From assembly GCA_017461725.1 (NCBI GenBank), contig JAFTXG010000013.1:1-36666 (forward strand): a stretch of 36,666 nt of DNA, in the 5' to 3' direction. Positions 5,002-26,593 of this stretch are shown here, piece after piece. A model generated the notes under the pieces. That model saw only the letters and a list, made by a program, of their open reading frames with translations, made no database searches and was not told the DNA's origin. Both the position numbers and the translations under genes were made by a program. Every line of letters begins with the position of its first letter. Positions within the stretch are counted from its first letter, which is position 1. The DNA is from Lachnospiraceae bacterium (GTDB lineage: Bacteria; Bacillota; Clostridia; Lachnospirales; Lachnospiraceae).

Positions 5002-5382
5002 ATGAAAAAATTGAAAGTAACGAATCAGGATGCATGTATGGCGTGCCTTCAGTGCGAGGTTGCCTGTTCAGAAGCATTTTATAAGATGTTTGATCCGGAC
5101 AAGTCCTGCATCCACATTGTAGAGAAAAAAGAGAAGGTTAAGACACAGGTGTGTGTTCAGTGCGGAAAGTGTGCAAAGGTTTGTGAGCATGGTGCTATCA
5201 CCCAGAACGCAAAGGGTGTTTACATGATCAACAAGAAGCTTTGTGTAAACTGTGGAAAGTGTGTAGCTGCCTGTCCCTTTGGCGTTATGGTTGCAGGGGA
5301 GAAAAATCCCAGCAAGTGTATTGCATGTGGTATCTGCGTAAAGGCCTGTCCTATGGACGTTCTCGAAATCGTAGAGAGCTGA
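5002..5382 (+). CDS. 4Fe-4S polyferredoxin, four cysteine motifs
   Basis: 126 residues with four successive CxxCxxCxxxC motifs: CMACLQCEVAC near residue 12, CVQCGKCAKVC near 52, CVNCGKCVAAC near 81 and CIACGICVKAC near 110. The second to fourth are followed by ferredoxin-like turns (EHGAI, PFGVM, PMDVL). The sixteen cysteines can hold up to four [4Fe-4S] clusters. It resembles the HycB/DmsB-type electron-transfer subunit but stands alone with its own promoter and terminator, so its redox partner is not visible here. A soluble cytoplasmic electron carrier is the reasonable role. A GGAGG-type site precedes the ATG. Confidence 0.88.
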   Translation: MKKLKVTNQDACMACLQCEVACSEAFYKMFDPDKSCIHIVEKKEKVKTQVCVQCGKCAKVCEHGAITQNAKGVYMINKKLCVNCGKCVAACPFGVMVAGEKNPSKCIACGICVKACPMDVLEIVES

Positions 5383-5388
5383 TATTGT

Positions 5389-6894
5389 TTATAATTGAAT
5401 CAGATGATAAGGAAGAGAGTGCTGCGAGAGGATCGCAGCCTCTCTTTTTTGGCAACTGAAAATTAGCTTTTGGCCGGGATAATCAGCGCTTAGTCTTGCC
5501 AGAAGGACTGCAAGACGTGAATCATCGGTGGTAGAAAAAATGTCATCCAGCAAAAGCGGAAGCTCCGCGCCGGGGAAAAGCAATTCCATAGAGGCAAGGC
5601 GGCATGCGAACATGAGCTGTTCTACGGTGCCGCGGCTTAAACCGTCGATAGGGATAAGTCGTCCCTCCTCTATCAGAGAGAAATGAAAAGACTCATCAAT
5701 CAATAGTTGGGAAAACAGCCTCCCGGTCAGGGCAGATGCATGGCGAATAAAGGTGCGCTGCAGATCGGGGCTGTACGTGTGATGAATCTCCGAAGACAGA
5801 TCGGAAATGGTATCAATGGCCAACTGAAGGGCATCTATCTTCTGAGATAATGATTCATCAGAGAGGAGCTGTTTTTCCAGCAAAAGTTTTTTTGCGTTAA
5901 GTATGTCTATGCGGCCGAGCAGGGATTGTAATTCATCAAGGGAGTGAGAGAGGGATTTATTTAACGAATATTCGTCTTTCTCAGCGGAAAGAGAATGCAC
6001 TTCATCAAAGTCAGTGACGCAATCCAAGGAGCTTTTTTTACGAATCATAAACAGCATGCCAAACAGGCCTGCCAGAAATGAAAGCGCGGCAGGCAGGTAG
6101 TCAATCGACAGGGATGTCGATTTGGAGAACGGCGGGCAAAACAGAAAGTAAACGCCAAGCAGCAAAAACAGAAAGCTGATCGCCGTCACTACGATTCCGA
6201 AATGGTAAAGAGTCGCATGCTGAGGAGGCGCTTCCTGAACCAGGATGTCATCGAAACCAGCCTGTTCATGGAGTTTGGTCTGAAGCGCATGGAGTTCCTC
6301 GGTCACACAAAAGAGATCGCCGGAGGTTGCACCGGATAGTTCAGCAAGAGCTTCCTTCTTTTGGCGCTTCAGGTTCTGGAGGGCCTGTGAGGCGGAAAAG
6401 GTCATGGAGCCACTTCCTGGAAGGTTCTGGGTGTATTGACGCAGGATGCCAGAAAGTGCGTTGATATCAGAGTTGGATTGCCCGGAAATATGAAACATAG
6501 CGCGATAAGCGGCGCCGTTCACCTGGGAGAGTAACTGCGCCAACATGGTTTCGCCATGGGGCATGACCACTCCATCATCCAAACGTGTAAGACGCGTGAA
6601 TCGAGTGTCGGAAAGAAAACTCCGCTCCAGAAACCATGACGCACCGTTCGCTGTGAATGTGAGGGTGCCACCGTAGGCGGTAGCGTGCCAGGGGAGGAAA
6701 TGGACATATGCATCAAAGCGTGATGCCCGTCCTCGACTGCGCTCCAAGCCATAAAGCATATGAAAAATAAAACTGCAAAGCGTGGACTTTCCAGCCTCAT
6801 TATCACCACAAATTAAATTTAAATCTTCCGAGAAGGTCAAGTCCAGATTGGCCAGCTTGCCAAACCCATCAATGTGAAGTTGCTGTAAAATCAT
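5389..6894 (-). CDS. yhaN: YhaN/Rad50-like AAA ATPase, short, with membrane hairpin
   Basis: 501 residues. The N-terminus has the SMC/Rad50 layout (LHIDGFGKLANLDLTF, then Walker A GDNEAGKS at 30-37). The C-terminus has the ABC signature region LSRGTVEQ at 419-426 and Walker B LPLLLDDIFS near 446. In place of the long coiled coil there are short helices and two hydrophobic segments at about 231-253 and 266-284, predicted to form a membrane hairpin. YhaN-family proteins in Bacillus are about 960 residues, so this copy has lost most of the coiled coil. It lies 34 nt downstream of the YhaO/SbcD-like nuclease, the usual partner of such ATPases, and ends a minus-strand run starting at dinB. Its last codons overlap the terminator hairpin of the convergent ferredoxin gene. 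A role in DNA end processing is inferred. Confidence 0.82.
   Translation of the reverse strand: MILQQLHIDGFGKLANLDLTFSEDLNLICGDNEAGKSTLCSFIFHMLYGLERSRGRASRFDAYVHFLPWHATAYGGTLTFTANGASWFLERSFLSDTRFTRLTRLDDGVVMPHGETMLAQLLSQVNGAAYRAMFHISGQSNSDINALSGILRQYTQNLPGSGSMTFSASQALQNLKRQKKEALAELSGATSGDLFCVTEELHALQTKLHEQAGFDDILVQEAPPQHATLYHFGIVVTAISFLFLLLGVYFLFCPPFSKSTSLSIDYLPAALSFLAGLFGMLFMIRKKSSLDCVTDFDEVHSLSAEKDEYSLNKSLSHSLDELQSLLGRIDILNAKKLLLEKQLLSDESLSQKIDALQLAIDTISDLSSEIHHTYSPDLQRTFIRHASALTGRLFSQLLIDESFHFSLIEEGRLIPIDGLSRGTVEQLMFACRLASMELLFPGAELPLLLDDIFSTTDDSRLAVLLARLSADYPGQKLIFSCQKREAAILSQHSLPYHLIQL
5414..5450 (+). terminator. Terminator of the ferredoxin gene, inside the convergent coding sequence
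   Basis: The core stem GCTGCGA (5421-5427) pairs with TCGCAGC (5433-5439) around the loop GAGGA. An outer stem AGAGAG (5414-5419) pairs with CTCTCT (5440-5445) with one bulged T, and TTTTT follows. The hairpin lies wholly within the last codons of the minus-strand ATPase gene, encoding its KREAAILSQHSL segment. Confidence 0.85.
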
Positions 6895-8769: not shown

Positions 8770-10019
8770 GATGGAACCTCCCTTGTGTTGCGTTTGGCTT
8801 TATTGAGGCCGCCGCTCATGTGACTCTCATCTGAGCCGACAAAGCATGCCCGTTTCAGGGAATCTTCACCATAACGGGTGCGGATAGAATCGACAGCGGC
8901 GTTAAGTCTGGTCAATTTTTCTGAACGCTGCAGATTAAATAAATCATATTGCTCGTATGCAGTATCTGTGGCATGGCTGGTGTGCACACCAAGCTGGCGG
9001 ATGGGGGTGCCGTCCCAGAGTTGGTCAAACAACGTACAGGCAGAATGGTATATCGTCTCCGTCAAATTGGTGGTGGAGGACAGGGTCATTTGTCTGGATG
9101 AGTGATGGAACTCGTAGTCCACCAGTGATACCGAGATGGTGGAAATGTGTGCGCTGTCTGCCCGGATACGGGAACCTACAGTCTCTGAGAGAGACAGCAG
9201 GAAACGCAGAGCAGTGGCTCTGTCGGTAATATCAAAGGGGATGGTCTGGGAATTACCGTAGCCTTTGTTTGATGCCTCGTGGACCGTTACGGTATCGTGA
9301 TCGAGGCCGTTTGCGTAATCCCAGAGCTGACCGCCGTGTTTGCCCAGATGAGACATGATAAGCTGACGATCCGAGGCGGCCAGGTCCCCGATGGTTTTAA
9401 TCCCCAGATGCTGGAATGTCTTTAAGGAAGAACGTCCGGCGTAGAGCAGATCACCGATGGGAAGCGGCCAGAATTTATCCCTCATTTCAGATAGAAAAAG
9501 GGTGTGTACCTTATCAGGCTTTTCAAAATCAGAGGCAGTCTTTGCCAGAAACTTATTGTTAGAAATCCCGATATTGACCGTAAAGCCCAGTTTGGAGGAA
9601 ATCATATCCTTTAGGGTATGTGCAAACTCTACCGGGGAGCCGTAAAGCAGTTCGGTTCCGGTCATGTCGCAGAAGGCCTCATCGATGCTGAAGGGCTCTA
9701 CCGACGGTGCGTACTCCCTGAGCAGGTCCATGAACGCCCGGGAATTGCGTACGTAAAGATCAAAATTCGGCGGAACGACTACCAGTTCAGGGCACTTCTG
9801 ACGGGCTTTGACCAAAGGTTCTCCAGTGCGGACACCGAAACGCTTGGCAGCGGTGGACTTGGCCAGAACGATACCGTGGCGCTGCTCCTCACTGCCGCCG
9901 ACGGCAGAGGGGATGTCACGCAGATCCAGCGAGTCCCCCAGTTGATTGATCCGGTAGCTGGCCTCCCAGGAAAGAAAAGCGCTGTTTACATCAATATGAT
10001 AAATAATCGGTTCGCCCAT
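8766..10019 (-). CDS. dinB: DNA polymerase IV-type translesion polymerase (Y family)
   Basis: 417 residues. Y-family motifs are clear: YHIDVNSAFLSWEA (metal-binding D10) and FSIDEAFCD (D113, E114). The thumb/little-finger region follows with helix-hairpin-helix-like IGDLAASDRQLIMSHLGKHG. A beta-clamp binding pentapeptide QYDLF is visible near 357-361. It copies across damaged bases without proofreading. The promoter at 10040-10068 is near-consensus, and a LexA-type box lies 10 bp upstream of its -35. AAAGGAGA on the minus strand sets the start. The 3' end overlaps the SDR gene by 4 nt, making dinB the first gene of a four-gene minus-strand unit. Related UvrX-type polymerases are the alternative subfamily. 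Confidence 0.94.
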   Translation of the reverse strand: MGEPIIYHIDVNSAFLSWEASYRINQLGDSLDLRDIPSAVGGSEEQRHGIVLAKSTAAKRFGVRTGEPLVKARQKCPELVVVPPNFDLYVRNSRAFMDLLREYAPSVEPFSIDEAFCDMTGTELLYGSPVEFAHTLKDMISSKLGFTVNIGISNNKFLAKTASDFEKPDKVHTLFLSEMRDKFWPLPIGDLLYAGRSSLKTFQHLGIKTIGDLAASDRQLIMSHLGKHGGQLWDYANGLDHDTVTVHEASNKGYGNSQTIPFDITDRATALRFLLSLSETVGSRIRADSAHISTISVSLVDYEFHHSSRQMTLSSTTNLTETIYHSACTLFDQLWDGTPIRQLGVHTSHATDTAYEQYDLFNLQRSEKLTRLNAAVDSIRTRYGEDSLKRACFVGSDESHMSGGLNKAKRNTREVPS

Positions 10020-15200: not shown

Positions 15201-15327
15201 AATTATATTGATATAACTGTTGGTGCGTAAGACGGAAAACCCCATAAAGATATGCTGAAATAAAATACTGGAAAGCCGTGGGATGAAACTGCAAATGCAG
15301 ATGGAAATACGGCTGAAAGGAGCACTC

Positions 15328-16449
15328 ATGCCTCCCATTAATATCCTGATTAAGCCCGCATCCGGCAGTTGTCAGATGCGCTGTGAATATTGTTTTTATG
15401 CCGATGAGATGTGTAACCGCGAGACCGGAAGCTACGGCATGATGAAGCCGGAAGTGCAGGAGATGATGGTCAAAAAAGGTCTGCAGGCTGCGGAGAGAAG
15501 CATTACCTTCTCTTTCCAGGGCGGAGAACCGACGCTGATCGGTCTGGAGTATTACCAGCGGTTGATGACGCTGATCGAAAAGTATAATACGAAACGGCTT
15601 CAGGTGTCCTTCGCTCTTCAGACAAACGGCTACGGGATCACCGAGGAGTGGGCAAAGTTCTTTGCGAAGCACGGCTTTTTGATCGGTATCTCCCTTGACG
15701 GGCCCAAGGATATTCACGACCGCTACCGCAAGGACGGTAAGGGAGAGGGAACCTTCGACCGGGTAATGAACGCTATCAGTCTGTTTAAGAAATACAAAGT
15801 GGAGTTCAATGTCCTCACGGTGGTCACCGGACACACGGCGGACGAGATCGGACGGATCTATAAGTTTTTCCGAAAAAACAATATTGTCTATCAGCAGTAT
15901 ATCGCCTGCCTTGATCCGCTGGGCGAGCTTCGTGGAAAGATGGAGTATTCCCTGACACCGGAGAAATACGGAAAGTTTTTGAAACGGCTGTTTGACCTCT
16001 GGTACGAGGATATGTCCCGGAAAAATTATGTGTACAATCGCTATTTTGAAAATCTGGCGGGGATGCTGGCCGGGTATCGTCCGGAGACCTGTACGCTTCT
16101 GGGGTACTGCATGCCCAGCTATGTGGCGGAGGCCGACGGCAGCATCTATCCATGTGATTTCTATGTTCTCGATGATTACCGTCTGGGCAATCTGATGACC
16201 GATGACTTCGGGGATTTTGATCGGAGACGCACGGAGATCGGCTTTGTGGAGGCTTCCGCAAAACACGAGGAGGAATGCCTGACTTGTCCCTGGGGTTACC
16301 TGTGCAGGGGAGGTTGTCGGAGAGACAGAGAGCCTGAGGCGGGTGCCGGCATCGGAAAGAATTATTTCTGTGAGGCGTACAAGGAGTTTCTTCCCTATGC
16401 CAAGGACAGGCTTGTGGAGATTGGAAAAATGTGGATCGGAAGAAAATGA
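15328..16449 (+). CDS. Anaerobic sulfatase-maturating enzyme-like radical SAM/SPASM protein
   Basis: About 373 residues. The radical SAM motif CX3CX2C is C15, C19, C22 (GSCQMRCEYCFY), followed by GGEPTL. The C-terminal SPASM region has the cysteines of anSME enzymes: CTLLGYC, the EADGSIYPCDFYVLDDYRLGN segment with the conserved Asp next to Cys, then CLTCPWGYLCRGGC and YFCEAYK, which hold two auxiliary [4Fe-4S] clusters. Such enzymes oxidise a Ser or Cys of sulfatases to formylglycine. No sulfatase is in the window, so the client is elsewhere or differs. The ATG at 15328 is chosen for its AAAGGA site; an upstream ATG at 15283 lacks one. It follows the acyltransferase by 127 nt. Confidence 0.88.
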   Translation: MPPINILIKPASGSCQMRCEYCFYADEMCNRETGSYGMMKPEVQEMMVKKGLQAAERSITFSFQGGEPTLIGLEYYQRLMTLIEKYNTKRLQVSFALQTNGYGITEEWAKFFAKHGFLIGISLDGPKDIHDRYRKDGKGEGTFDRVMNAISLFKKYKVEFNVLTVVTGHTADEIGRIYKFFRKNNIVYQQYIACLDPLGELRGKMEYSLTPEKYGKFLKRLFDLWYEDMSRKNYVYNRYFENLAGMLAGYRPETCTLLGYCMPSYVAEADGSIYPCDFYVLDDYRLGNLMTDDFGDFDRRRTEIGFVEASAKHEEECLTCPWGYLCRGGCRRDREPEAGAGIGKNYFCEAYKEFLPYAKDRLVEIGKMWIGRK

Positions 16450-16811
16450 GCCCACAAAATGTATTATACAAGCTTTGCTTATTGCGCTCTGACCGTGAAG
16501 GAGGAAGAAGATGGGGTTCGCATTTCCTGCAAAGTGAAAAATATCGCTCAGTCGCGGGAAAAGAAGTTGTGCAGCTGTACATTTCTGATTGGATAAGCAC
16601 GGTGTCAAAGCCTGAGAAGGAGCTGAAGGATTTTGCGAAGGTGTATCTGGAGCCGGGGACATATGACTTGTTGATCGGTGCGTCCAGCCAGGATATCCGA
16701 TTGGGGGAGCGTATGTATATGATAAGGGATGCGAGTATACGCTTAATTATACCGCAGAAGAAATTATGGGATAGATTGCAAAATATGTGGGGATATCCTG
16801 AGAATAGGTAA
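16450..16811 (+). pseudogene. Remnant of a GH3 beta-glucosidase C-terminal Fn3-like domain
   Basis: Reading on past the anSME stop in the same frame gives MYYTSFAYCALTV, then EEEDGVRISCKVKN, like the Fn3-like domain of family 3 beta-glucosidases. Near 16545-16555 the homology shifts frame to VAGKEVVQLYIS and continues with KPEKELKDFAKVYLEPG. It then jumps straight to TYDLLIGASSQDIRLGER, missing the roughly 35-40 residues that normally lie between two EPG motifs. A third frame gives YTLNYTAEEIMG and a stop. There is no catalytic domain and no start signal. It is a decayed tail with at least one frameshift and one internal deletion. Family identity is from motif memory only. Confidence 0.75.
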
Positions 16812-16815
16812 TTGT

Positions 16816-16859
16816 AAAACAGCTGTCATACCAATGTTATCGGTAGGACAGCTGTTTTT
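16816..16859. terminator. Bidirectional-looking terminator downstream of asnS
   Basis: ACAGCTGTC (16819-16827) pairs with GACAGCTGT (16847-16855), with an inner TACC/GGTA pairing after one mismatch. T and A runs flank it (TTTTTG on plus; TTTTAC on minus). It lies 31 nt beyond the asnS stop on the minus strand and after the GH3 remnant on the plus strand. Confidence 0.82.
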
Positions 16860-16889
16860 GTAAATGATGTCGGTAAACGGCAGCTGGGA

Positions 16890-18281
16890 CTACAGCTCAC
16901 AGTTATTTACTGTTCTGGGGAAGGGCAGTACGTCGCGGATATTGCCCATGCCGGTCAGGTACATGACGCAGCGCTCAAAGCCCAGACCGAAGCCCGCGTG
17001 GCGTGCAGAGCCGTACTTGCGCAGATCCAGATAGAAGTCGTAGTCCTCGGTGTTCAGACCCAGCTCGTTCATGCGGGCAACCAGCTTATCGTAGTCATCC
17101 TCACGCTGGCTTCCGCCGATGATCTCGCCGATGCCGGGAACCAGACAGTCCATAGCGGCTACGGTCTTTCCGTCCTCGTTCAGCTTCATATAGAAGGCCT
17201 TAATCTCCTTCGGGTAATCGGTTACAAATACAGGGCGTTTGAATACCTGCTCGGTCAGGTAGCGCTCGTGCTCGGTCTGCAGGTCGCAGCCCCAGAATAC
17301 CTTGTAATCGAAGTTGTCGTTGTTCTTTTCCAGAATCTCGATGGCCTCGGTGTAGGTCACATGGCCGAAATCGCTCTCCAGAACATTGTGCAGGCGGTCA
17401 AGCAGGCCCTTGTCGATGAAGGAGTTGAAGAACTGCATCTCCTCGGGAGCTTTTTCCAGCACGTAGCTGATGATATACTTCAGCATGTCCTCTGCCAGCT
17501 GCATGTTGTCATTCAGGTCGGCAAACGCAACCTCGGGCTCGATCATCCAGAACTCAGCCGCATGGCGGGTGGTGTTGGAGTTCTCGGCGCGGAAGGTAGG
17601 GCCGAAGGTGTAAATATTGCGGAAGGCCATGGCGAAGGTCTCGCCGTTCAGCTGGCCGCTGACGGTCAGATTGGTGGGCTTTCCGAAGAAGTCCTGAGTG
17701 AAGTCGATCTTTCCATCCTCGGTCTTAGGCACGTTGTTCAGGTCCATGGTGGTCACCTGGAACATCTCGCCTGCACCCTCGCAGTCGCTGCCGGTGATCA
17801 GTGGAGTGTGAACATAGACGAAGTCACGCTCCTGGAAGAAGGTGTGGATCGCGTGGGCGATCAGGGAGCGAACGCGGAACACTGCCTGGAAGGTGTTGGT
17901 TCTGGGACGCAGGTGGGAGACGGTGCGCAGGTACTCCAGAGAGTGGCGCTTTTTCTGCATGGGGTAATCGCTGGCTGACTTGCCCTCCACCAGAACAGAG
18001 GTCGCCTGCAGCTCGAAGGGCTGCTTTGCCTCGGGGGTAGCGATCAGGGTACCCTCCACGATAACGGCCGCGCCTACGTTTAATTTGGATACCTCTGCGA
18101 AATTCTCCATATCATCGTGATATACGATCTGCAGGGTGTTGAAGAAGGTTCCGTCGCTGACTACCAGGAAACCGAAGTTTTTGGAAGCGCGATTGGAACG
18201 TACCCAGCCGCCGATGGAGATCGGCTTGTCTATATATTTCTCAGTGTCTTTGAAAATACTGCGTACGGTTGTCAGGTTCAT
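16890..18281 (-). CDS. asnS: Asparagine--tRNA ligase
   Basis: 463 residues, the usual size. An N-terminal OB-fold anticodon domain ([20 protein letters not shown] near 21-40) is followed by a class II catalytic core: motif 2 [20 protein letters not shown] and motif 3 [13 protein letters not shown], ending [13 protein letters not shown] as in AsnRS rather than AspRS. It charges tRNA-Asn in the cytoplasm. AAGGAG on the minus strand precedes the ATG. The promoter is an extended -10. The roughly 50-nt leader has no T-box, unlike trpS in this window. Codon use is strongly biased, as in a highly expressed gene. Confidence 0.97.
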
Positions 18282-18331
18282 GATGATTCTCCTTATGGGT
18301 CAAAATAGTTAAAAATAAATGATTATCTTTC

Positions 18332-18340
18332 ATTATAACA
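18332..18340 (-). promoter_or_regulatory. asnS promoter (extended -10)
   Basis: On the minus strand, TGTTATAAT: a perfect TATAAT (18337-18332) with the TGN extension. No good -35 is seen at 16-18 nt. The leader to the ATG is about 45 nt, with AAGGAG before the start. Confidence 0.65.
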
Positions 18341-18470
18341 CGTTTATCCTGTAATTACCAGTGGTAAAAGCAAAAAAGTCTGTAATACATGGAAAATAAA
18401 AAGAAAAATAGTGAAAAAAGTGTGGGTTCCACACAAACAGTAGTGATTTGACAGCGAAAGTTTGTTCGGC

Positions 18471-18499
18471 TTGACAAATATGAACTTAGGGGTTATATT
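18471..18499 (+). promoter_or_regulatory. Strong promoter of the adhesin/SipW operon
   Basis: TTGACA at 18471-18476, a 17-nt spacer, and TATATT at 18494-18499. A second TTGACA at 18468-minus-20 (TTTGACAG, 18467-18473 region upstream) is not spaced to a -10. The start site is predicted near 18506. The only gene downstream on this strand is the GTG-started adhesin at 18743. Confidence 0.82.
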
Positions 18500-18505
18500 G
18501 TTTCT

Positions 18506-18742
18506 ACATTCGCGGGGCGTTCGTCTTACGCGGATTACATATCATACCAGGGTGTACTGTGTTCCGTTCGGAGGGGCACCCGTCACAGATATTCTTGGTC
18601 GATTTCAGACAGGAATCAGAGAAATGAAAAACGCATTTTGTTCGTCTGGGGGAATGATGCCCGGGCCTGGGAAAGTGCGCCTGAAAATGGGGGTGATTAA
18701 AAAAATAACAAATTTAGTCATTGAGAAAGGGGACAAAATCAG
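18506..18742 (+). other. Long 5' leader of the adhesin operon, possible structured RNA
   Basis: About 237 nt lie between the promoter and the GTG start. Complementary blocks alternate: GGGTG (18550-18554) with CACCC (18577-18581), and CTGTG (18557-18561) with CACAG (18584-18588), around a small TCC/GGA hairpin. This a-b-a'-b' order would allow a pseudoknot. No known riboswitch class (including c-di-GMP types) was recognised. The A-rich 3' part (18697-18742) leads to AAAGGGG. Short open frames are present but lack good start signals. Confidence 0.4.
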
Positions 18743-21079
18743 GTGAGAAAAAGAAGAAAAATTGCAGTGGTGTTTTGGTTGACAATCATCTTGTTGATCA
18801 TTCCCGGCGGTTGCATCACTGGATTTGCGGAAACTGTCGGGACAGAGGAGAGGGGGACGGAAGAAAAAGATGAGGAAGAGACAAAAGAAACGGGGGATGT
18901 GTGCCAGGAGGATATTGATGCCTATGTGCAGACCGTTTCGGAACTGCCGGCCTACCTGAGAGCGGACAATGCTGAGGCTGTTTCTGCGCTGCTGAGTAAG
19001 GCCCATGAGTTATATAGTGGGCTGAATGAAACAGAAAAGGCAGAACCGGAGGTGGTTGCCGCTCACGGGGCGTGGGAGAATATGGTACGGCAATCCCAGA
19101 GTACGGCGTTGATCTCGGAAAAGGTGACGGTCAATTATGTTTCACCTGACCAGCTGGGCGAGATCGAAAATCTGGTGCCGAGGCAGGGAACGGCAGGGCC
19201 GGAGAGCGAGGGTTTTGCGCTCGATTCTGAGAATACTGTCGTGTCAAATGGCGTGATCAAAGCAGATGTGCTTCATGATCAGGGAACCGGAGGAAATCAG
19301 GAGATGATCGCTGTTTCCTGCGATGGACAGGCGTTGGAGTCAGATGTAAAGCTGACGGTAAAGTATTCGAACATCGGAACCTATTATGAGGGCCGCATTT
19401 ATACGGATCAGAACGTAGCCGGGATTCAGGTAAATGCTGTCGTGACGATCAGTAATCCCTATAACGCGAATCGAATTTCGTTGTATGAGAATTTCTGGAT
19501 GGGCGGAACGGTAAACGGAGGCTCAGGAAAGCTTGGATATGCTCAGGGAACACCGGGCAGGGCGGATGTGAGTATAACCTTCTGCGATGAAAACTGGAAT
19601 CCCATCGCGCTGAAGGAAGATGCGCAGCTGATCGCCAGCTCGATCTCCCACGGTTACTATAAGGGATGTTCCTATGAGGGAATCAGCTTTTCCGGGGCAG
19701 AGGCGGAGACTACGGTCAGGATATATGATCAGGCCCATGGAAATATCGGAATCGATGACGGCTCGCTGTTCGGACTGGATCAGACCTTTTACGGCGAGTT
19801 GGCCGGGGCCTATTACTGTGCTGACAGCGGCGGTCCTCATTCGGGAGGAAACGATTATGAGGATACCAGGTCCGGCGGGACCTTTATGGTACACGGTGTG
19901 GGATTTTATCAAAAGTCATCCACCTGGAAAATGACGATGACGACGCAGACGACATACAATGGAGGTCACGACTACTGGTTCTATTTTACTGCTGCGCCGG
20001 CCAATCTGACCAGACCGCAGGCACCGACGAAAAGCGTCAGCAGCGGAAAGGTACAGACCGGGGAGACGCTTTCTTACGCGCTGGAGCAAAAGCTTTCGGA
20101 AATTCAGAAGGATGGCTATGGCTACTATGGATCCCTCGTATTCTATGATACCCTGCCGGAGGGCGTGGAATATTTGTCTGCCGGCATGTATCTGGATGAG
20201 ACGGATGTCACATCGTCGGCAGGAACATTGAACTATAATGCCGCCATCGGAAAAGTGACCTATACGTTTTCTGCATCGTATCTGAAAAACATGACCTATA
20301 ACGGACAGACCGCAAAGCTGGTGATCAATTGCAGACTGGACAGCGATTTGAGCGGCGAGCATTTGATTACAAATACAGGAAATGTATCGGTTTGCGGGCA
20401 GGTGGAATCGGCGGTGGCGGAGTTTACTCCGCTGTACGAAATTACTACGGAGGTGGTAAACGGTACGATCGATCCGGCGGTGACAGGAATTATTCCCGGA
20501 GCAGAGAAGACCATATGCTATGGACCTGATAGCGGTTTCGTCCTGGAATCCATTGTGGTTGACGGTACGGAGGTGGAAGGGGACATGTATTCTGCCGGAT
20601 ATACGTTTTCCGATATTCTGGAAAATCATCATATCCGGGTGGTATACCAAAGGCAGCAGGCAGACCGGAGTGTACAGCTGACAAAGCGGATCCGGGCCTC
20701 AGAGATCATATTTGATCACGGGAATCCGGCGTTTCTGTTCCGTCTGGAAGGAACGGATCAGCTGGGGAATAAGCGGCTCTGCTATGGAGCGGTGCTCTTC
20801 ACCCGGGAATATGTGGAGGCAAATACGGATGCAGATGGATTTGTATCCTGTACGGTGACCTTTGATGGGCTGATGCCCGGAGTATATACGGCCACAGAGG
20901 AGATTACCAACCGATATCAAACCGATCAGATTATTTCGCTGTCAAACTGCAGTATAAACGGTGAGGCTGCAGTGTTTGATCTGACTGAGACCGGCAGCGG
21001 AAGTGCCGAGTTTGTCAATCGGAAGTATGAGCAGGGAGGTTTTTCACACAGTAGCCTTGTGGAAAATAAAGTCAGTTGA
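18743..21079 (+). CDS. Large secreted adhesin/pilin-like protein with isopeptide-type domains
   Basis: 778 residues from a GTG preceded by AAAGGGG (10-nt spacing). A signal peptide is clear (basic MRKRRK, a hydrophobic core, cleavage near GFAE at about 30). An acidic linker and a helical segment (to about 120) follow, then a large beta-rich N-terminal domain (about 150-430). A fimbrial isopeptide D2-like domain is suggested near 430-570 (LSYALEQKLSEI, FYDTLPEGVEYLS, ITNTGNVSV). A short repeat domain near 575-635 (TIDPAVTGIIPG, HIRVVYQ) and a Spy0128-like pilin domain near 640-765 (FLFRLEGTDQLGN, AEFVNRK) complete it. There is no LPXTG-like motif or C-terminal hydrophobic anchor, so it may be held by the TasA-like partners downstream. 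Domain names are from pattern memory. Confidence 0.8.
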   Translation: MRKRRKIAVVFWLTIILLIIPGGCITGFAETVGTEERGTEEKDEEETKETGDVCQEDIDAYVQTVSELPAYLRADNAEAVSALLSKAHELYSGLNETEKAEPEVVAAHGAWENMVRQSQSTALISEKVTVNYVSPDQLGEIENLVPRQGTAGPESEGFALDSENTVVSNGVIKADVLHDQGTGGNQEMIAVSCDGQALESDVKLTVKYSNIGTYYEGRIYTDQNVAGIQVNAVVTISNPYNANRISLYENFWMGGTVNGGSGKLGYAQGTPGRADVSITFCDENWNPIALKEDAQLIASSISHGYYKGCSYEGISFSGAEAETTVRIYDQAHGNIGIDDGSLFGLDQTFYGELAGAYYCADSGGPHSGGNDYEDTRSGGTFMVHGVGFYQKSSTWKMTMTTQTTYNGGHDYWFYFTAAPANLTRPQAPTKSVSSGKVQTGETLSYALEQKLSEIQKDGYGYYGSLVFYDTLPEGVEYLSAGMYLDETDVTSSAGTLNYNAAIGKVTYTFSASYLKNMTYNGQTAKLVINCRLDSDLSGEHLITNTGNVSVCGQVESAVAEFTPLYEITTEVVNGTIDPAVTGIIPGAEKTICYGPDSGFVLESIVVDGTEVEGDMYSAGYTFSDILENHHIRVVYQRQQADRSVQLTKRIRASEIIFDHGNPAFLFRLEGTDQLGNKRLCYGAVLFTREYVEANTDADGFVSCTVTFDGLMPGVYTATEEITNRYQTDQIISLSNCSINGEAAVFDLTETGSGSAEFVNRKYEQGGFSHSSLVENKVS

Positions 21080-21179
21080 AATCCAAAGGAAAATAAAGAT
21101 TAAAAACGAAAGCCAAACAGAGGAAACAAAGCAGGAAACTGGAAAAGAATTGGAAAATTAATTAAAAAGGAGAAGAAAA

Positions 21180-21875
21180 ATGAAAAAAATGATGAGAATG
21201 CTGGCAGCAAAAATGAAGGTGATGAACAGAGGAACAAAGAAGGTTTATATGGGTGTGCTTGCATGCCTGCTGTTAACTGCACTGGCCGTGGGAAGTATCT
21301 CTGCTTACTTTACGGATGGGGATGCTGTCACCAATACATTTACCGTAGGCAGAATATCGCTGGACCTTCAGGAGCCGGATTGGGATCCGGACACGGCAAA
21401 GGATATGACGCCCAATCAGACGGTGAAAAAGAATCCTCAGATTTACAATGATGGGGCAAACAGTGAGTTTGTATTCATGGAAGTGGTGATTCCGTATGGA
21501 ACGCTGATCACGGCGAATGAGGACGGAACATTAAATGCTGCCGGATATACCGAGCTTTATCATTACACAGTCAATCCCGGCTGGCATCAGATGTCCGGCA
21601 CCCGGAACGAGGCAGACCAAACCGTGACGTATCTGTATGTCTACGGAGATGCAGAAAATTGCACTGAGCTGGCGGTGGGATCCACTACTCCTGCATTGTT
21701 TGACACGGTAACGCTCGCCAATGTGGTTGAGGATCAGGCCCTGGAGGGAAAAACGCTGGAGATTATCATCAAGGCATACGGTATTCAGACAACCAATATC
21801 AATGGAGGAAAAACCGCACCGGCTGATGTGTGGATGGTTTTATCCAACCAGGCTCCCTCTGTTGTGAAGGAATAA
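21180..21875 (+). CDS. TasA/CalY-like protein with SipW-type signal peptide
   Basis: 231 residues. The N-terminus is basic, then VYMGVLACLLLTALAVGSIS and AYFTDGDAVTNTFTVG, the hallmark of SipW-dependent camelysin/TasA proteins, with cleavage expected just before or at the AYFT segment near residue 42. The mature domain (about 185 residues) is beta-rich, as expected of a fibre-forming subunit: PNQTVKKNPQIYNDG, MEVVIPYGTL and VTYLYVYGD resemble other members. AAAAAGGAG sets the start. It is the second gene of the operon, 100 nt past the adhesin with no terminator between them. It is probably a major extracellular fibre or matrix subunit. Confidence 0.85.
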   Translation: MKKMMRMLAAKMKVMNRGTKKVYMGVLACLLLTALAVGSISAYFTDGDAVTNTFTVGRISLDLQEPDWDPDTAKDMTPNQTVKKNPQIYNDGANSEFVFMEVVIPYGTLITANEDGTLNAAGYTELYHYTVNPGWHQMSGTRNEADQTVTYLYVYGDAENCTELAVGSTTPALFDTVTLANVVEDQALEGKTLEIIIKAYGIQTTNINGGKTAPADVWMVLSNQAPSVVKE

Positions 21876-21890
21876 AGGGAGGTAGATGTG

Positions 21891-22424
21891 ATGAAAGGTA
21901 TTGGCAGAATGTGTCGCATGACATGGCTGATCCTGTTCATTGGAATAATCGCTGCATTGACCGGGACGGTCAGCGCTTATCTGGCAGATGGAGAACAGAT
22001 AGAAAATCGCCTGACCATCGGTGGGAATCAGATTGAGATCCGGGAAGAGTTCGATCCGCCGGAGGAATTGACTCCGGGAAGTACATTTACGAAATCAGTC
22101 CGGGTGGAAAACTCTGGACATAGTGAATGTTATGTGCGGGTGAAGGCTGTTTTTTCGGACAGTAATACAGGCCAACACTGCAGTCTGGATTGGAATACGA
22201 CGGATTTTAACTATTGTGCTGAAGATGGTTTTTATTATTATCGGTACAAGGTGATGCCAAAGGAGCTGACCGCGTATCTGTTTACGACAGTTACGGTCAG
22301 CCCGGAGGCACCTCCGGAGCAGCTGGGGGAATTCTCCATATTGGTATATGCAGAGAGCTGTCAGGCTGTCGGCTTTGCCACAGGTGATGAGGCCTGGGCA
22401 TATTTCGGGAGGAATAAGTCATGA
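21891..22424 (+). CDS. TasA/CalY-like protein with SipW-type signal peptide, short form
   Basis: About 177 residues from the ATG at 21891 (AGGGAGG at 21876-21882; an in-frame GTG at 21888 is less well spaced). The signal segment LILFIGIIAALTGTVSAYLA then DGEQIENRLTIG is of the SipW type. The mature part has the family pattern LTPGSTFTKSVRVENSGHSE and CYVRVKAVFSDS, a conserved short beta-sandwich. It lacks a C-terminal anchor, so the product should be released or assembled outside. Its stop overlaps the next ATG (ATGA), giving tight coupling. It may be a minor subunit or an assembly partner. Confidence 0.82.
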   Translation: MKGIGRMCRMTWLILFIGIIAALTGTVSAYLADGEQIENRLTIGGNQIEIREEFDPPEELTPGSTFTKSVRVENSGHSECYVRVKAVFSDSNTGQHCSLDWNTTDFNYCAEDGFYYYRYKVMPKELTAYLFTTVTVSPEAPPEQLGEFSILVYAESCQAVGFATGDEAWAYFGRNKS

Positions 22425-23572
22425 AAAAGAGAGTCGGGTGGACAGTGCAGATGCTGTTGATCGGTTTGTCCGCCATTTTGGTAGGTACCGGAGCGATGAT
22501 CTGGGCCCGGCCGACAGCGGAAACCAACAATTCTTTTGCTACCGGTGTGGTCCGTATTGATCTTCAGCAGACACAGCTGGATGAACATGGGAGAGAAACG
22601 CAGATCAAAGAGGATATGTTGCTTTTGCCGGGTACGGATGTGTCTCGGGCTGCCATTATACATAATCGGGGAAATGACTGCTATATCCGTGTTCGCGTCG
22701 GGTTTCGTGGGACTGATCAGTTGGATGAATCCTGTCTGTACGGGATTGACGACGAATGGGTCAGAGCGGAGGATGGATATTATTACTATCAGCGCGTGCT
22801 TCCGGCAAACAGTTCAGTAAATTTTTGCGAAGGACTGCGGATCCCGGAGGATTTTGGTGAGACGGAGGCTGGGAGTGAAATCGCATGGGAGATTCAGGCA
22901 GATTCGATCCAAAGTCGGAATATTACGCCGGATATTGGAGCGGCAGATCCATGGGGAGAAGTGGAGATTCAGGAGTCGGTGATTACAGATGGAGGTCAGA
23001 TACATATTCTCAGCAGGTCTGATAAAAAATTTGTCGTACACTATCAGGGGGAGGTGGATAAATTGATTGTAAATGAGGAGAATTTTTTCGGCAATCTGCC
23101 TGAATTGATGCCGGGGGACGAGTTTACCGATGGTGCAAAACTGATCAATAACGGTAATCGCCCTATCCGGCTGTATTTCAGAAGCGTTGTGGAGGACACA
23201 TCCGATGTTACCGATAAAATACAGCTGATGATTGAGACCGAGGTGGAGGGGAATTCGCAGGTGATTTATGAAGGACCGCTCAGAGGGGATGAATTGTCGG
23301 ATGAACTGGTGCTGATGACCATTCCTGCAGAGAGTGTGGGGAAAATGGTGTTCTCAATCTATGTTCCGCCAGAACTGGATAATGCTTATGCGCTGAAAAA
23401 CAAGGCGGTGCAGTGGATTTTTTCCACGGAGAGGATTTTGCTGCCTGAGGATGGTGTGGATACCGGTGACAGCCGCATGATCGGCGGATATTTTTTGTTG
23501 TCCGGTTTGTCTCTCGGATTTGCTGTCCGTATGATCCAGCGAAAAAGGAGAGCAAATGACAGCAGGGACTGA
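22421..23572 (+). CDS. Two-domain TasA-like protein with C-terminal membrane anchor
   Basis: 383 residues. The N-terminus (MKKRVGWTVQMLLIGLSAIL, then GTGAMIWARPTAETNNSFATG) is a SipW-like signal peptide with the AxPTAETNNSFATG variant. Domain 1 (about 40-165) shows LLLPGTDVSRAAIIHNRGNDCYIRV and domain 2 (about 200-345) LMPGDEFTDGAKLINNGNRPIRL, the same fold repeated. A hydrophobic segment near 358-374 (YFLLSGLSLGFAVRM) followed by RKRR forms a C-terminal membrane anchor. It could tether fibres made of the two preceding proteins to the cell. The gene overlaps the signal peptidase gene by 17 nt. Confidence 0.8.
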   Translation: MKKRVGWTVQMLLIGLSAILVGTGAMIWARPTAETNNSFATGVVRIDLQQTQLDEHGRETQIKEDMLLLPGTDVSRAAIIHNRGNDCYIRVRVGFRGTDQLDESCLYGIDDEWVRAEDGYYYYQRVLPANSSVNFCEGLRIPEDFGETEAGSEIAWEIQADSIQSRNITPDIGAADPWGEVEIQESVITDGGQIHILSRSDKKFVVHYQGEVDKLIVNEENFFGNLPELMPGDEFTDGAKLINNGNRPIRLYFRSVVEDTSDVTDKIQLMIETEVEGNSQVIYEGPLRGDELSDELVLMTIPAESVGKMVFSIYVPPELDNAYALKNKAVQWIFSTERILLPEDGVDTGDSRMIGGYFLLSGLSLGFAVRMIQRKRRANDSRD

Positions 23573-24068
23573 GGGAATCGCAGGGAGAATTACAGACCTG
23601 TGCAGAGGCATACTGAGTGGTATAATAACGATGGCGGCTGTGTATGCAGCCGCCATACTGGTTCTCATGCTGGGCGGGATAAAGCCATACATCGTAATGA
23701 GCGGATCCATGGAACCGACAATCTGCACGGGCAGTCTCTGTCTGGTGTATAGCAAAGCGGCCTTCGAATCTATTGCTGTCGGAGATGTGATCGCCTTTGA
23801 GACGGCCGGAGGAAGCATGGTAACTCATCGGGTGATAGGGATAAGCGACAGAGGGATGGAGACAAAAGGCGATGCGAATGATGTGCCGGATGGATACACG
23901 ACCACGCCGGAGAATTTTCGGGGGAAAACGGTATTTTCGATTCCTTATCTTGGCTATGTGAATTATGCGATGAATAGTCAGCCCGGAAAAATAATCTGCA
24001 TGATCCTCTTTTTATTGCTTTTGGCAGCAGATATATTGCGAAAAGTGCCTGAACCGGGGGAAATTTGA
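23556..24068 (+). CDS. sipW: SipW-type signal peptidase I (Ser/His)
   Basis: 170 residues. The catalytic serine lies in MSGSMEPTI (S51), and the general base is histidine in VTHRVIG (H91), the Ser-His arrangement of the archaeal/ER and SipW type instead of the Ser-Lys dyad. KGDANDVPD near 104-112 supplies the conserved Asp. TM1 is at about 22-42, and a C-terminal TM is at about 146-162. It should process the three upstream SipW-type precursors at the membrane. AAGGAG before the ATG lies inside the end of the preceding gene. It is the last gene of the operon. Confidence 0.92.
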   Translation: MTAGTEGIAGRITDLCRGILSGIITMAAVYAAAILVLMLGGIKPYIVMSGSMEPTICTGSLCLVYSKAAFESIAVGDVIAFETAGGSMVTHRVIGISDRGMETKGDANDVPDGYTTTPENFRGKTVFSIPYLGYVNYAMNSQPGKIICMILFLLLLAADILRKVPEPGEI

Positions 24069-24137
24069 CGAATTTTTATAAAAAAAGTTGTTTATTGTAA
24101 TATGCACAAAAAAGATTTGAAATGTTGAAAAAAGTTG

Positions 24138-24166
24138 TTCACATATTCTAAGCTTTGTGCTATACT
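24138..24166 (+). promoter_or_regulatory. glgC promoter
   Basis: TTCACA at 24138-24143, a 17-nt spacer, and TATACT at 24161-24166 (5/6 each), with TGC directly upstream as an extended -10. It lies 37 nt before the glgC ATG. Confidence 0.8.
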
Positions 24167-24203
24167 ATAGTTATCATATTTTAACTAGGGGTGGATTGAC
24201 ATC

Positions 24204-25472
24204 ATGAAAAAAGAAATGATTGCCATGCTTCTGGCTGGCGGCCAGGGTAGCCGTCTTGGCGTACTGACCGAGATGGTAGCGAAGCCTGCTGTTGCATTTG
24301 GCGGCAAGTATCGCATTATTGATTTCCCGTTGAGTAACTGTATCAATTCCGGGATTGATACGGTAGGTGTGCTGACACAGTATCGCCCGCTGCGGCTTAA
24401 CTCTCACATCGGTATCGGTATTCCGTGGGATCTGGACAGAAACCATGGCGGTGTTACCGTGCTTCCGCCTTATGAGACGAGCACCAAGGGCGAGTGGTAC
24501 AGCGGTACGGCGAACGCGATCTATCAGAATCTGGAGTATATGGAGAATTATAACCCCGAGTATGTTCTGATTCTGTCCGGAGACCATATTTATAAGATGG
24601 ACTACGAGCAGATGCTCGACTATCATAAGGCAAAAGGGGCAGATATCACCATCGCCACGATGGCGGTTCCCATGGAGGAGGCCAGCCGTTTTGGTGTGGT
24701 GATCACCGATGAAGATAAAAAGATCACTGAGTTCGAGGAGAAACCCCCTCAGCCCAGAAGCAACCTGGCATCCATGGGTATTTATATCTTTACCTGGTCT
24801 GTTCTTCGCGATGCGCTGATTAAGCTGTCCGAGCAGCCCGGCTGCGACTTTGGTAAGCATATCATCCCTTATTGCCACGCAAACGGAAATCCTACTTACG
24901 CTTACGAGTTCCAGGGATACTGGAAGGATGTAGGTACTCTCGGTTCCTACTGGGAGGCAAATATGGAGCTGATCGATCTGGTTCCCGCATTCAACCTGTA
25001 CGAGGAGTTCTGGAGAGTATATACCAACAGTGATATGCACCCCGCTCAGTACATTGGTACCAACGCAGTGGTTGAGCGCAGCGTAGTCAGCGAGGGCGCG
25101 GAGATTTACGGACGAGTATATAACTCCGTGATCGGCGCCGGCGTTGTGGTTGAGGAAGGCGCAGAGATCAAAGACTCCATCATCATGCAGAACTGTGTGA
25201 TCGGTGCAGGTTCCAGTCTGAACAAGGCGATCCTGGCAGACGATGTCAAGGTCGGAAGAAATGTTAAGATGGGCGTAGGCGAGTTCGCACCCAGCAAGCT
25301 GGATCAGAAAGTATATGCCTTTGATCTGGTTACCGTCGGTGAGCACTCTGTCATCCCCGATAATGTGAGCATCGGCAAGAATACGACGATCTCCGGTGTG
25401 ACGACCGCAGAGGATTATCCGGACAACTGTCTTGAGAGCGGTGGATATATTAAGAAGGCAGGTGAATTATAA
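24204..25472 (+). CDS. glgC: Glucose-1-phosphate adenylyltransferase
   Basis: 422 residues. It makes ADP-glucose from ATP and glucose 1-phosphate, the first committed step of glycogen synthesis. The nucleotide-binding [14 protein letters not shown] is at the N-terminus, followed by [15 protein letters not shown], the catalytic [16 protein letters not shown] region, and a C-terminal left-handed beta-helix of hexapeptide repeats ([15 protein letters not shown] and on). AGGGGTGG precedes the ATG. Its stop overlaps the glgD start by one base. The strong codon bias suggests high expression. Confidence 0.97.
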
Positions 25473-26593
25473 TGAAGGCAATCGGTATAATTCTTGCTGG
25501 TGGTAACAGCAAACGGATGAAAGAACTTTCCCAGTACCGCGCGATCGCAGCGATGCCGGTGGCTGGTGGATATCGTGCGATTGATTTCGCGCTCAGCAGT
25601 ATGAGCAATTCACATATCAGTAAGGTGGCAGTTATCGCGCAGTATAACTCCTTCTCACTGAATGAGCACTTAAGCTCCTCCAAGTGGTGGGATTTTGGAC
25701 GTAAGCAGGGCGGCCTGTATGTATACACCCCCATGATTACGCCTAACAACCGCAACTGGTATCAGGGAACTGCGGATTCCATGTATCAGAACATCCGCTT
25801 CCTCTATGAGAGCCATGAGCCCTACGTAGTGATCGCCTCCGGTGACGGCGTTTATAAGCTGGATTATAATAAGGTGCTGGACTATCACATTGCAAAGCAG
25901 GCCGACATCACCCTCGTGTGCACCGACAGCCCTGCAGGCGGCGATCTGAGCCGCTTCGGTGTACTGAAGACCGATGAGGACGGCCGTGTGGTAGAGTTCG
26001 ATGAGAAGCCGATGGCTACCGAGCTCAATCTGGTTTCCTGCGGTATCTATGTGATCCGCCGCCGTCTGCTCATCGAGATGCTGGAGCAGTGTGCAGAGGA
26101 GGAGCGCCACGATTTCGTACAGGATATCTTGATCCGCCATCGCAATGTAAAGCAGATCTATGCTTACCAGATGGACGGCTACTGGAGCAACATCGCAAGC
26201 GTGGAGGCTTACTATCAGACCAACATGGATTTCCTGAAGAAAGAGGTTCGCGATTACTTCTTCCATCAGGAGCCCGAGGTTCACTCCAAGGTGGATGACA
26301 ATGCACCTGCAAAGTACAACCCCGGAGCGAAGATCCGCAACAGTCTGATCTGCAGCGGAAACATCATCAACGGTGAGATTGAAAATTCCATGCTGTTTAA
26401 GAAGGTATATGTGGGTAACAATTGTGTGATTCGTAACTCCATTATCCTGAATGATATTTATATTGGTGACAACACGGTGATTGAGAATTGTATCGTGGAG
26501 AGCCGCAGCAATATCGAGGCTAACTCGGTATACAAGGGAACTCCCGATGACATTAAGATTGTGGTGGCGAAAAAGTCCCAGTACAGAGTATAA
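25472..26593 (+). CDS. glgD: GlgD, partner subunit of ADP-glucose pyrophosphorylase
   Basis: 373 residues, shorter than GlgC, and characteristic of Firmicutes GlgC-GlgD pairs. The nucleotidyltransferase fold is present (ILAGGNSKRMKELSQYRAIA, then ASGDGVYKLDYNKVL) and hexapeptide repeats follow near the C-terminus (VYVGNNCVIRNSIILNDIYI). The canonical G-rich GSRL loop is altered to NSKRMKEL, in keeping with a regulatory or catalytically weak subunit. It overlaps glgC by one nucleotide, so the two are translationally coupled and probably form heterotetramers. Confidence 0.95.
   Translation: MKAIGIILAGGNSKRMKELSQYRAIAAMPVAGGYRAIDFALSSMSNSHISKVAVIAQYNSFSLNEHLSSSKWWDFGRKQGGLYVYTPMITPNNRNWYQGTADSMYQNIRFLYESHEPYVVIASGDGVYKLDYNKVLDYHIAKQADITLVCTDSPAGGDLSRFGVLKTDEDGRVVEFDEKPMATELNLVSCGIYVIRRRLLIEMLEQCAEEERHDFVQDILIRHRNVKQIYAYQMDGYWSNIASVEAYYQTNMDFLKKEVRDYFFHQEPEVHSKVDDNAPAKYNPGAKIRNSLICSGNIINGEIENSMLFKKVYVGNNCVIRNSIILNDIYIGDNTVIENCIVESRSNIEANSVYKGTPDDIKIVVAKKSQYRV

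Follow-up and report, generated by a model that had tools for sequence, protein, structure and literature searches.

A TasA-type operon of a Lachnospiraceae bacterium whose large adhesin ends in a tail resembling a subunit-joining donor strand

TasA-type fibres are known as components of the biofilm matrix, and the proteins that partner them as starters or chaperones. In the tapA-sipW-tasA system of Bacillus subtilis, TasA polymerises through an N-terminal donor strand formed by residues 28–38, with contacts made by F29, I32 and F39 (PMC9674648), and TapA gives its N terminus as donor (PMC10151520). The polymer of the sipW-bsaABCRSD system of Clostridium perfringens is reported to be unaffected when the neighbouring sortase is lost (PMC7395162). 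The locus described here lies in a window of 36,666 nucleotides, the whole stretch of Lachnospiraceae DNA that was analysed, and is probably a TasA-type operon whose adhesin would be mounted on a predicted fibre by a 12-residue tail, through donor-strand complementation and with no sortase. The new point with respect to the first-pass annotation of this DNA is the tail itself, the sequence of which resembles the donor strand found at the N-terminus of TasA-like subunits.

The operon spans a promoter-like site at 18471 and five open reading frames that end at 24068, all on the + strand, in agreement with the five-gene operon and leading promoter proposed at first pass. The promoter-like site (TTGACA-17-TATATT, 18471..18499) agrees with the consensus at 11 of 12 positions and is the top scorer among 21 such sites found in 16400–24400, where 10.1 are expected from shuffles. 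Between promoter and adhesin start lies a long leader of 237 nt (18506..18742), partly conserved in a same-genus locus (L005). An Rfam search of this leader with E up to 1 gave no match and it folds no better than shuffles do (z -0.78); a riboswitch or other known RNA was rejected, and it is left as a plain leader. A GA-rich, ribosome-binding-like stretch precedes each of the five genes. The tight coupling described for genes 3 to 5 is confirmed by overlaps of 4 nt between T2 and T3 and of 17 nt between T3 and the SipW-type gene.

Gene 2 (21180..21875) encodes T1, a TasA/camelysin-family subunit of 231 aa and the likely shaft, which scores 32.2 bits with PF12389 (Peptidase_M73/TasA), above the cut-off of 22.5. 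T2, from gene 3 (21888..22424), is a short TasA/BsaA-like subunit of 178 aa that stays below both family cut-offs, with 54.3 bits against 60 for TIGR04090 (BsaA), for which T1 and T3 reach 24.3 and 13.1, and 14.0 against 22.5 for PF12389. Gene 4 (22421..23572) encodes T3, a likely anchor of 383 aa with two TasA-like domains and a C-terminal membrane helix, whose PF12389 score of 19.5 is also below the cut-off. As both T2 and T3 lie under that cut-off they are treated as relatives only, T3 being placed by profile comparison, in which its first domain matches the T1 profile; T2 is a weaker relative. The earlier reading of three TasA-like subunits hence survives in that all three are TasA-related, but neither T2 nor T3 reaches the M73 cut-off and T2 also misses that of BsaA. 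A TasA-like fold is nevertheless found among the middle proteins, since solved TasA ranks first by VIA-align for the T3 model, although the Foldseek top 50 for T3 contain no TasA and the whole-chain matches are mixed beta proteins. Profiles of T1, T3 and the adhesin, compared with solved structures at E up to 1, matched neither a TasA nor an adhesin chain; the few matches obtained, to G-protein and dynein chains only, were rejected.

T3 closes with a sorting-like end (23456..23569) made up of VDTGD, a helix at residues 352–382 that is present in the model, and RKRR. In an alignment of 40 relatives the Gly of this end never varies, and its Thr and Asp are kept in at least 90%, so that the first-pass statement that no sorting signal is visible does not hold. 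Gene 5 (23556..24068) encodes a SipW-type signal peptidase of 170 aa, in which Ser51 and His91 can be read from the sequence and which scores 101.1 bits with TIGR02228, above the cut-off of 51.85; the proposed Ser/His SipW peptidase is thereby upheld. Against the Bacillus SipW equivalog NF046067 it scores 86.4, under the cut-off of 190.

Gene 1 (18743..21079) encodes the secreted adhesin of 778 aa and begins with GTG. An alignment with Sgo0707 covers the model range 156–565, within which the head region (residues 156–420; 19208..20002) is of low confidence, with pLDDT mostly below 70 and below 50 at residues 291–390. The predicted fold of residues 423–563 (20009..20431) is that of a C2-like domain, the C2-type domain of an antigen I/II-type isopeptide adhesin. 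The last domain (residues 642–760; 20666..21022) is pilin-like and is better modelled, its blocks having a pLDDT of 79–91 except for one at 65. Lys648, Glu719 and Asn759 occupy the places of the Lys, catalytic acid and Asn of an isopeptide-bonded pilin domain, and a Lys648-Asn759 isopeptide bond is predicted. This Lys-Glu-Asn set recurs in all 20 aligned rows, the window's own among them, the alignment comprising 20 adhesin ends out of 33 (31 open reading frames plus P0044 and P0045), which bears out the isopeptide-type adhesin of the earlier reading. A plasmid-borne spread of the adhesin was rejected on a tblastn search of 72,556 plasmid records, which gave no match.

Right behind the last strand the prediction becomes unfolded, with pLDDT below 50 from residue 763, and it is here that the donor-strand-like tail is found (residues 767–778; 21041..21076). 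Its Asn775, invariant in 18 of 18 aligned adhesin rows, is the same motif Asn as in the N-terminal strand motifs of T1 (residues 44–57; 21309..21350; Asn52, invariant in 12 aligned), T2 (residues 32–45; 21981..22022; Asn40, invariant in 8 aligned) and T3 (residues 29–42; 22505..22546; Asn37, in at least 90% of 40). The T3 strand is probably packed on T3 domain 2 in the model, at low confidence. Motif positions were mapped to F29 and F39 of TasA with the TasA sequence and the spacing available from PMC9674648.

The tail was detected with a 12-wide profile trained on TasA-like N-termini only; its starting pattern was written with the tails already seen, although these were absent from the training set. 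A 14-wide run came first; as the tail in the window stops at motif position 12, the width was then set to 12, and both results are given. The profile was applied to 61 loci (the window, L005 and L042–L100), of which 58 contain TasA/SipW-type matches and 47 yielded candidates. To count as a candidate, an open reading frame had to be 450 aa or longer, to lie on the same strand as the operon and no more than 600 bp from a TasA/SipW-type frame, and either to have a hydrophobic stretch at its N-terminus or to be truncated there. Frames open at the C-terminus, and near frames with no hydrophobic N-terminal stretch, served neither as candidates nor as controls. The best site fell in the last 45 residues in 20 of 42 non-redundant candidates, against 1.6 expected (P 5e-18), and in 25 of 50 in the redundant set. 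The corresponding figures were 3 of 36 for control large frames (3 of 35 non-redundant) and a mean of 1.25 of 42 for shuffled adhesins, whilst the 14-wide profile gave 15 of 42 (P 6e-12) and 1 of 36 controls. The pattern hydrophobic-7 any-Asn-any-hydrophobic is present 30 times in tails, spread over 25 of the 42 proteins, where 3.3 are expected from protein bodies.

These counts have their limits. The window's tail ranks second, not first, among the 767 positions of its own protein; in two of the 25 profile positives (L066 and L099) the site differs from the tail proper; and the best site lies elsewhere in 22 of the 42 non-redundant candidates, some of which are unrelated proteins and several of which have a visible SH-type tail with a low score. 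In L068 and L072 the last domain and motif lie 544 and 378 residues ahead of the C-terminus, and the notion that the motif is always C-terminal was rejected for these two loci. The tail is also the best site behind last domains that do not match the window's, in five non-redundant adhesins (L080, L081, L083, L084 and L087). Outside the family, the profile ranks first in two of six candidates from 12 loci (P 0.02), the site in one of the two (L113) being a different one, and in these other families of the class the tail is visible by eye in four of the six. Across 28 loci a tail resembles the donor strands of its own operon no more closely than those of other operons (permutation P 0.30), and such matching was rejected as not significant.

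The last domain together with the tail was found at 34 places in 397 same-family genomes, 18 of them inside the search alignment and 16 outside, and each of the 34 has TasA-like genes no further than 10 kb away. Among the 61 loci, 31 open reading frames carry the adhesin end, and SipW with at least two TasA-like genes is present in 31 of 31; L041 was excluded from the counts as it has the same genes as L005 on a contig of equal length. Genes of the T1, T2, T3 and SipW types all adjoin the adhesin in 26 of the 31 loci with its last domain, which is why the set is taken to be more than chance, and 20 of the 31 contain a T3-type frame that is 320 aa or longer and has TG among its final 60 residues. 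Co-occurrence with the adhesin in relatives, on which the first-pass proposal had staked itself, is therefore conserved, and the gene set recurs, but not the gene order: adhesin and SipW change place within the set, the adhesin gene being its last member in L046, L047 and L050, and a fixed order was rejected. Nor does every TasA-like locus have a tail-bearing adhesin, an idea rejected since the T3 profile matches 68 of the 397 genomes and the adhesin end only 31. A candidate is missing in 11 of the 58 TasA/SipW-type loci, two of which (L071 and L073) contain a tail-bearing adhesin missed by the rule.

Since the final 12 residues of the adhesin look like the strand that joins TasA subunits to each other, this tail is likely to plug the adhesin onto the fibre. 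SipW is predicted to cut the signal peptides off T1, T2 and T3, and T1, from its N-terminal motif, to polymerise in a TasA-like manner by inserting this strand into the next subunit. The adhesin tail would occupy the groove of the first subunit, as the TapA N-terminal strand does in Bacillus subtilis, and every fibre would then begin with an adhesin. TapA is marked by a donor strand at its N-terminus, behind a SipW-type signal; the adhesin, with its strand-like motif at the C-terminus, does not fit this and may work like TapA without being TapA. Further subunits would join at the cell end, and T3, which either its TGD signal or its C-terminal helix would hold in place, would accept the last free strand, whilst the isopeptide-type last domain would transmit pulling force from the adhesive head to the tail. 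The best model thus remains a shaft with an anchored base and an adhesive end, the roles of these parts being inferred.

It is quite unlikely that a sortase or another covalent route joins the adhesin to fibre or wall, with the tail no more than a conserved end piece of the last domain. The conserved TGD-helix-basic end of T3 would suit such a route, as would the sortases present in 19 of 21 searched genomes that contain related loci, four of which (G118, G164, G031 and G049) have them within the stretch fetched around the locus, and the large LPxTG-ended proteins that lie 1.3–4.9 kb from TasA/SipW-type genes at four other TasA-like loci (L093, L096, L099 and L100). However, the adhesin does not show the LPxTG, membrane helix and basic tail of a sortase-anchored adhesin, and an LPxTG or C-terminal membrane-like segment occurs in none of the 31 adhesins with the tail end, window included. 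Moreover, the tail also follows unmatched last domains, and BsaA of C. perfringens is reported to polymerise without the neighbouring sortase (PMC7395162). A sortase search of the window's genome (G000, 86% complete) found none, and the other of the 21 genomes with none detected is a genus relative (G030, 84% complete), both being incomplete assemblies; the earlier remark that no sortase gene is visible agrees with this search of the window's genome but does not extend to most genomes with related loci.

Two other readings leave the covalent route aside. The tail may be a donor strand on an adhesin that sits along the fibre or at its cell end, or that caps growth, instead of standing at the distal end, and the place of the gene at the end of the set in some loci, the internal motif in two and a polarity that the data do not fix all leave room for this. 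It is nonetheless unlikely, as a donor strand with no groove of its own would fit only the start of a TasA-type chain, given the polymerisation described for TasA (PMC9674648), and the look of an anchored end already belongs to T3. That the adhesin is a soluble matrix protein co-regulated with the fibre genes, its tail alike by chance or relaxed composition, is very unlikely: the motif is short, 22 of the 42 candidates have no tail as best site and tails show no preference for their own operon's donors, but against this stand the excess over controls and shuffles, the invariant Asn, and the recurrence of the tail behind last domains that do not match and, as judged by eye, in other families.

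If adhesins with a donor-strand tag ride on the fibre, TasA-type fibres would double as adhesive pili, the attachment code would be legible from sequence alone, the fibre-riding surface proteins of Clostridia would become predictable, and it would be explained why these adhesins have isopeptide stalks with no wall anchor. A broader proposal, to which we give an even chance, is that a short donor-strand tag at the C-terminus takes the place of LPxTG in Clostridia, so that varied large pilin-like adhesins plug into TasA-type fibres in a modular and sortase-free manner, as a Gram-positive counterpart of chaperone-usher pilus tips. The LPxTG-ended neighbours at four TasA-like loci lower the odds of this.

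No description of a C-terminal donor-strand tail on adhesins was found in the open-access literature, a search whose scope does not extend to bioRxiv and which is no proof. Sgo0707 and the antigen I/II-family adhesins of streptococci share predicted domain folds with the window's adhesin. They end in LPxTG, whereas the window's adhesin ends in a donor-strand-like tail. In the F-ENA fibre with its F-BclA tip, the tip copies the docking peptide of the subunit and is modelled as binding the fibre end, and a separate anchor protein is a further likeness to the window; as described in that preprint, F-ENA differs in being a spore appendage of DUF4183 trimers with an N-terminal hook and a collagen stalk (PMC11952670). 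The TasA-CalY-CapP system of Bacillus cereus is alike as a sortase-independent heteropolymer of two TasA homologues and a third partner, but CapP is described as chaperone-like (PMC13082335), unlike an adhesin that carries a donor strand at its C-terminus. The sipW-bsaABCRSD system also combines SipW with secreted TasA/BsaA-type proteins; in its available description there is no large isopeptide-type adhesin, BsaB, BsaC and BsaD are putative secreted proteins, and a two-component system is included (PMC7395162), which is not found among the window's five genes, and T2 stays under the cut-off of the BsaA model. With tapA-sipW-tasA, as described in PMC9674648 and PMC10151520, the locus shares a SipW-type peptidase, a TasA-family subunit with an N-terminal donor strand, seen here as a motif, and, by inference, the idea of a minor strand-donating partner that starts the fibre. 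In contrast to that system, the window has three TasA-like subunits and no TapA among its five genes, it adds a two-domain subunit with a TGD-membrane end, and the partner that bears the strand is here a large pilin-like adhesin, which has it at the C-terminus.

The fibre operon in the window is conserved and belongs to a known type; what is new is the end of its adhesin, which copies the fibre's own clip and makes this a new variant. Five genes lie on one strand (18743–24068) downstream of the best promoter-like site in the stretch and encode, in order, the adhesin (778 aa), the three TasA-like proteins T1 (231 aa), T2 (178 aa) and T3 (383 aa) and the signal peptidase SipW (170 aa). T2 overlaps T3 by 4 nt and T3 overlaps the peptidase gene by 17 nt. 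The five-gene operon described in the first-pass annotation is borne out. The same five genes, flanked by the same neighbours, are found in L005, a locus from a Lachnospiraceae MAG of dairy-cattle colon recovered by a scan with two peptide patterns; these same genes appear as G030, which the search tool assigns to the window's genus. In G348 (70% complete), the third genome from this genus, neither T3 nor the adhesin end was matched.

The 237-nt leader that separates the promoter-like site from the adhesin gene (18506–18742) shares short identical stretches with L005; it matched no known RNA family and its folding energy is not unusual. Downstream, 24204–26593 holds a glgC-type gene, with a promoter-like site of its own at 24138, and a second, similar-looking ORF; both follow the operon in L005 as well. 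Upstream, a radical SAM gene resembling anaerobic sulfatase maturases (15283–16449) is directly followed by a 126-aa ORF (16431–16811, forward strand) that looks like a remnant, since it matches GH3-type glycosidases in their C-terminal Fn3-like domain only.

In the last domains of the adhesins, all 20 aligned rows retain the Lys, Glu and Asn that an isopeptide-forming domain should have, and the bond is predicted from these residues. About eight residues past the Asn begins a tail (residues 767–778 in the window) of the rough form F/Y-S/T-H/D-x-D-x-V-x-N-x-F, usually followed by the end of the protein. T1, T2 and T3 display the same pattern at the start of their mature chains, and all or nearly all aligned rows keep the same Asn there. 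The hydrophobic positions of the tail motif, which we take to correspond to F29 and F39 of TasA, are spaced like those residues. In TasA the corresponding N-terminal segment is a donor strand, for which PMC9674648 names contacts at F29 and F39, ten apart.

A profile trained only on TasA-like N-termini was used to scan large signal-bearing ORFs adjoining TasA/SipW-type genes. Of 42 non-redundant candidates, 20 had their best site within 45 residues of the C-terminus against 1.6 expected, with control values of 3/35 for other large ORFs and a mean of 1.25 for shuffles. The tail is the second-ranked site of the window adhesin; a tail is the best site in five non-redundant adhesins with an unmatched last domain (L080, L081, L083, L084, L087). 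Among six candidates from other families of the class, the profile ranked first in two, in one case at another site, and the tail was seen by eye in four (L105, L108, L113, L116). L108 and L113 each have a TasA-like ORF much longer than usual (641 aa at 8762 and 627 aa at 8896, respectively, forward strand) that adjoins SipW and the tail-bearing adhesin. The motif is internal in two adhesins, L068 (4166–10990) and L072 (12473–16459), where last domain and motif sit inside longer proteins and precede repeats that are presumably InlB-type and BspA-like. Neither LPxTG nor a C-terminal membrane-like segment was found in the 31 adhesins with this end. The tails showed no preference for the donor strands of their own operon, so these 12 residues reveal no specificity, should there be any.

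The adhesin was matched in 24 and T3 in 28 of 200 same-family genomes; across 397, the T3 profile matched 68 and the last domain plus tail 31. By our reading of the results, all 34 places with last domain and tail (18 included in the search alignment, 16 outside it) have TasA-like genes no more than 10 kb away. Since loci were selected by a match to T3 or the adhesin, these numbers apply to loci of that sort rather than to TasA operons at large. The conserved co-occurrence expected earlier was seen: in the loci examined, each of the 31 ORFs with this end is accompanied by SipW and two or more TasA-like genes, the T1, T2, T3 and SipW types are all present for 26, and for 20 there is a long T3 that carries TG close to its C-terminus. 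Gene order, which had been proposed as a check, differs among loci. No adhesin candidate was found in 11 of 58 TasA-like loci under a selection rule that missed two true cases. Of eight other adhesins scanned, SpaA repeats were above cut-off in four, DUF11 in one and DUF7601 in one; antigen I/II, collagen-binding and thioester matches were below it. Heads and stalks differ between adhesins, so the fibre set is fixed and the adhesins that go with it are exchangeable.

No sortase was found in the incomplete genomes searched from the window's genus. At least four relatives have a sortase gene inside or next to the fibre locus (L047 6909–7742, L049 about 5121–5492, L077 about 1250–1717 and L075 about 6293–6760), which suggests that T3-type TGD ends are sorted in these four and that T3 may well be wall-anchored there. 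Large LPxTG-ended, pilin-like proteins lie 1.3–4.9 kb from TasA/SipW-type genes in four loci (L093 12794–14230, L096 15117–19000, L099 4461–6005 and L100 1–4994), which may hold a sortase-type pilus beside the TasA-like set.

Two TasA rows align with the T3 model over a span that starts at residue 29 or 31 and ends at 338, in which about 120 residues are paired; a TasA fibre row covers 211–337. From these ranges, the N-terminal strand of T3 seems to be packed against its own second domain, a weak reading given a pLDDT near 63 for that strand.

On the simplest reading of the sequences, the tail of the adhesin would sit in a groove on a TasA-like subunit and so mount the protein there; since it offers a donor strand and lacks a TasA groove, the adhesin would be the first member of the chain. 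T3 resembles the opposite end of the fibre, given its conserved TGD-helix-basic C-terminus and the apparent strand placement in the model; if its own strand packs on domain 2, domain 1 would be free for the last fibre strand. T2 may be an adaptor. The role predicted for the adhesin tail resembles that of TapA, a partner whose donor strand, according to PMC10151520, is able to start the TasA fibre. Likewise, an adhesin with a fibre-like tail recalls F-BclA, described in PMC11952670 as a tip protein that copies the fibre's docking peptide.
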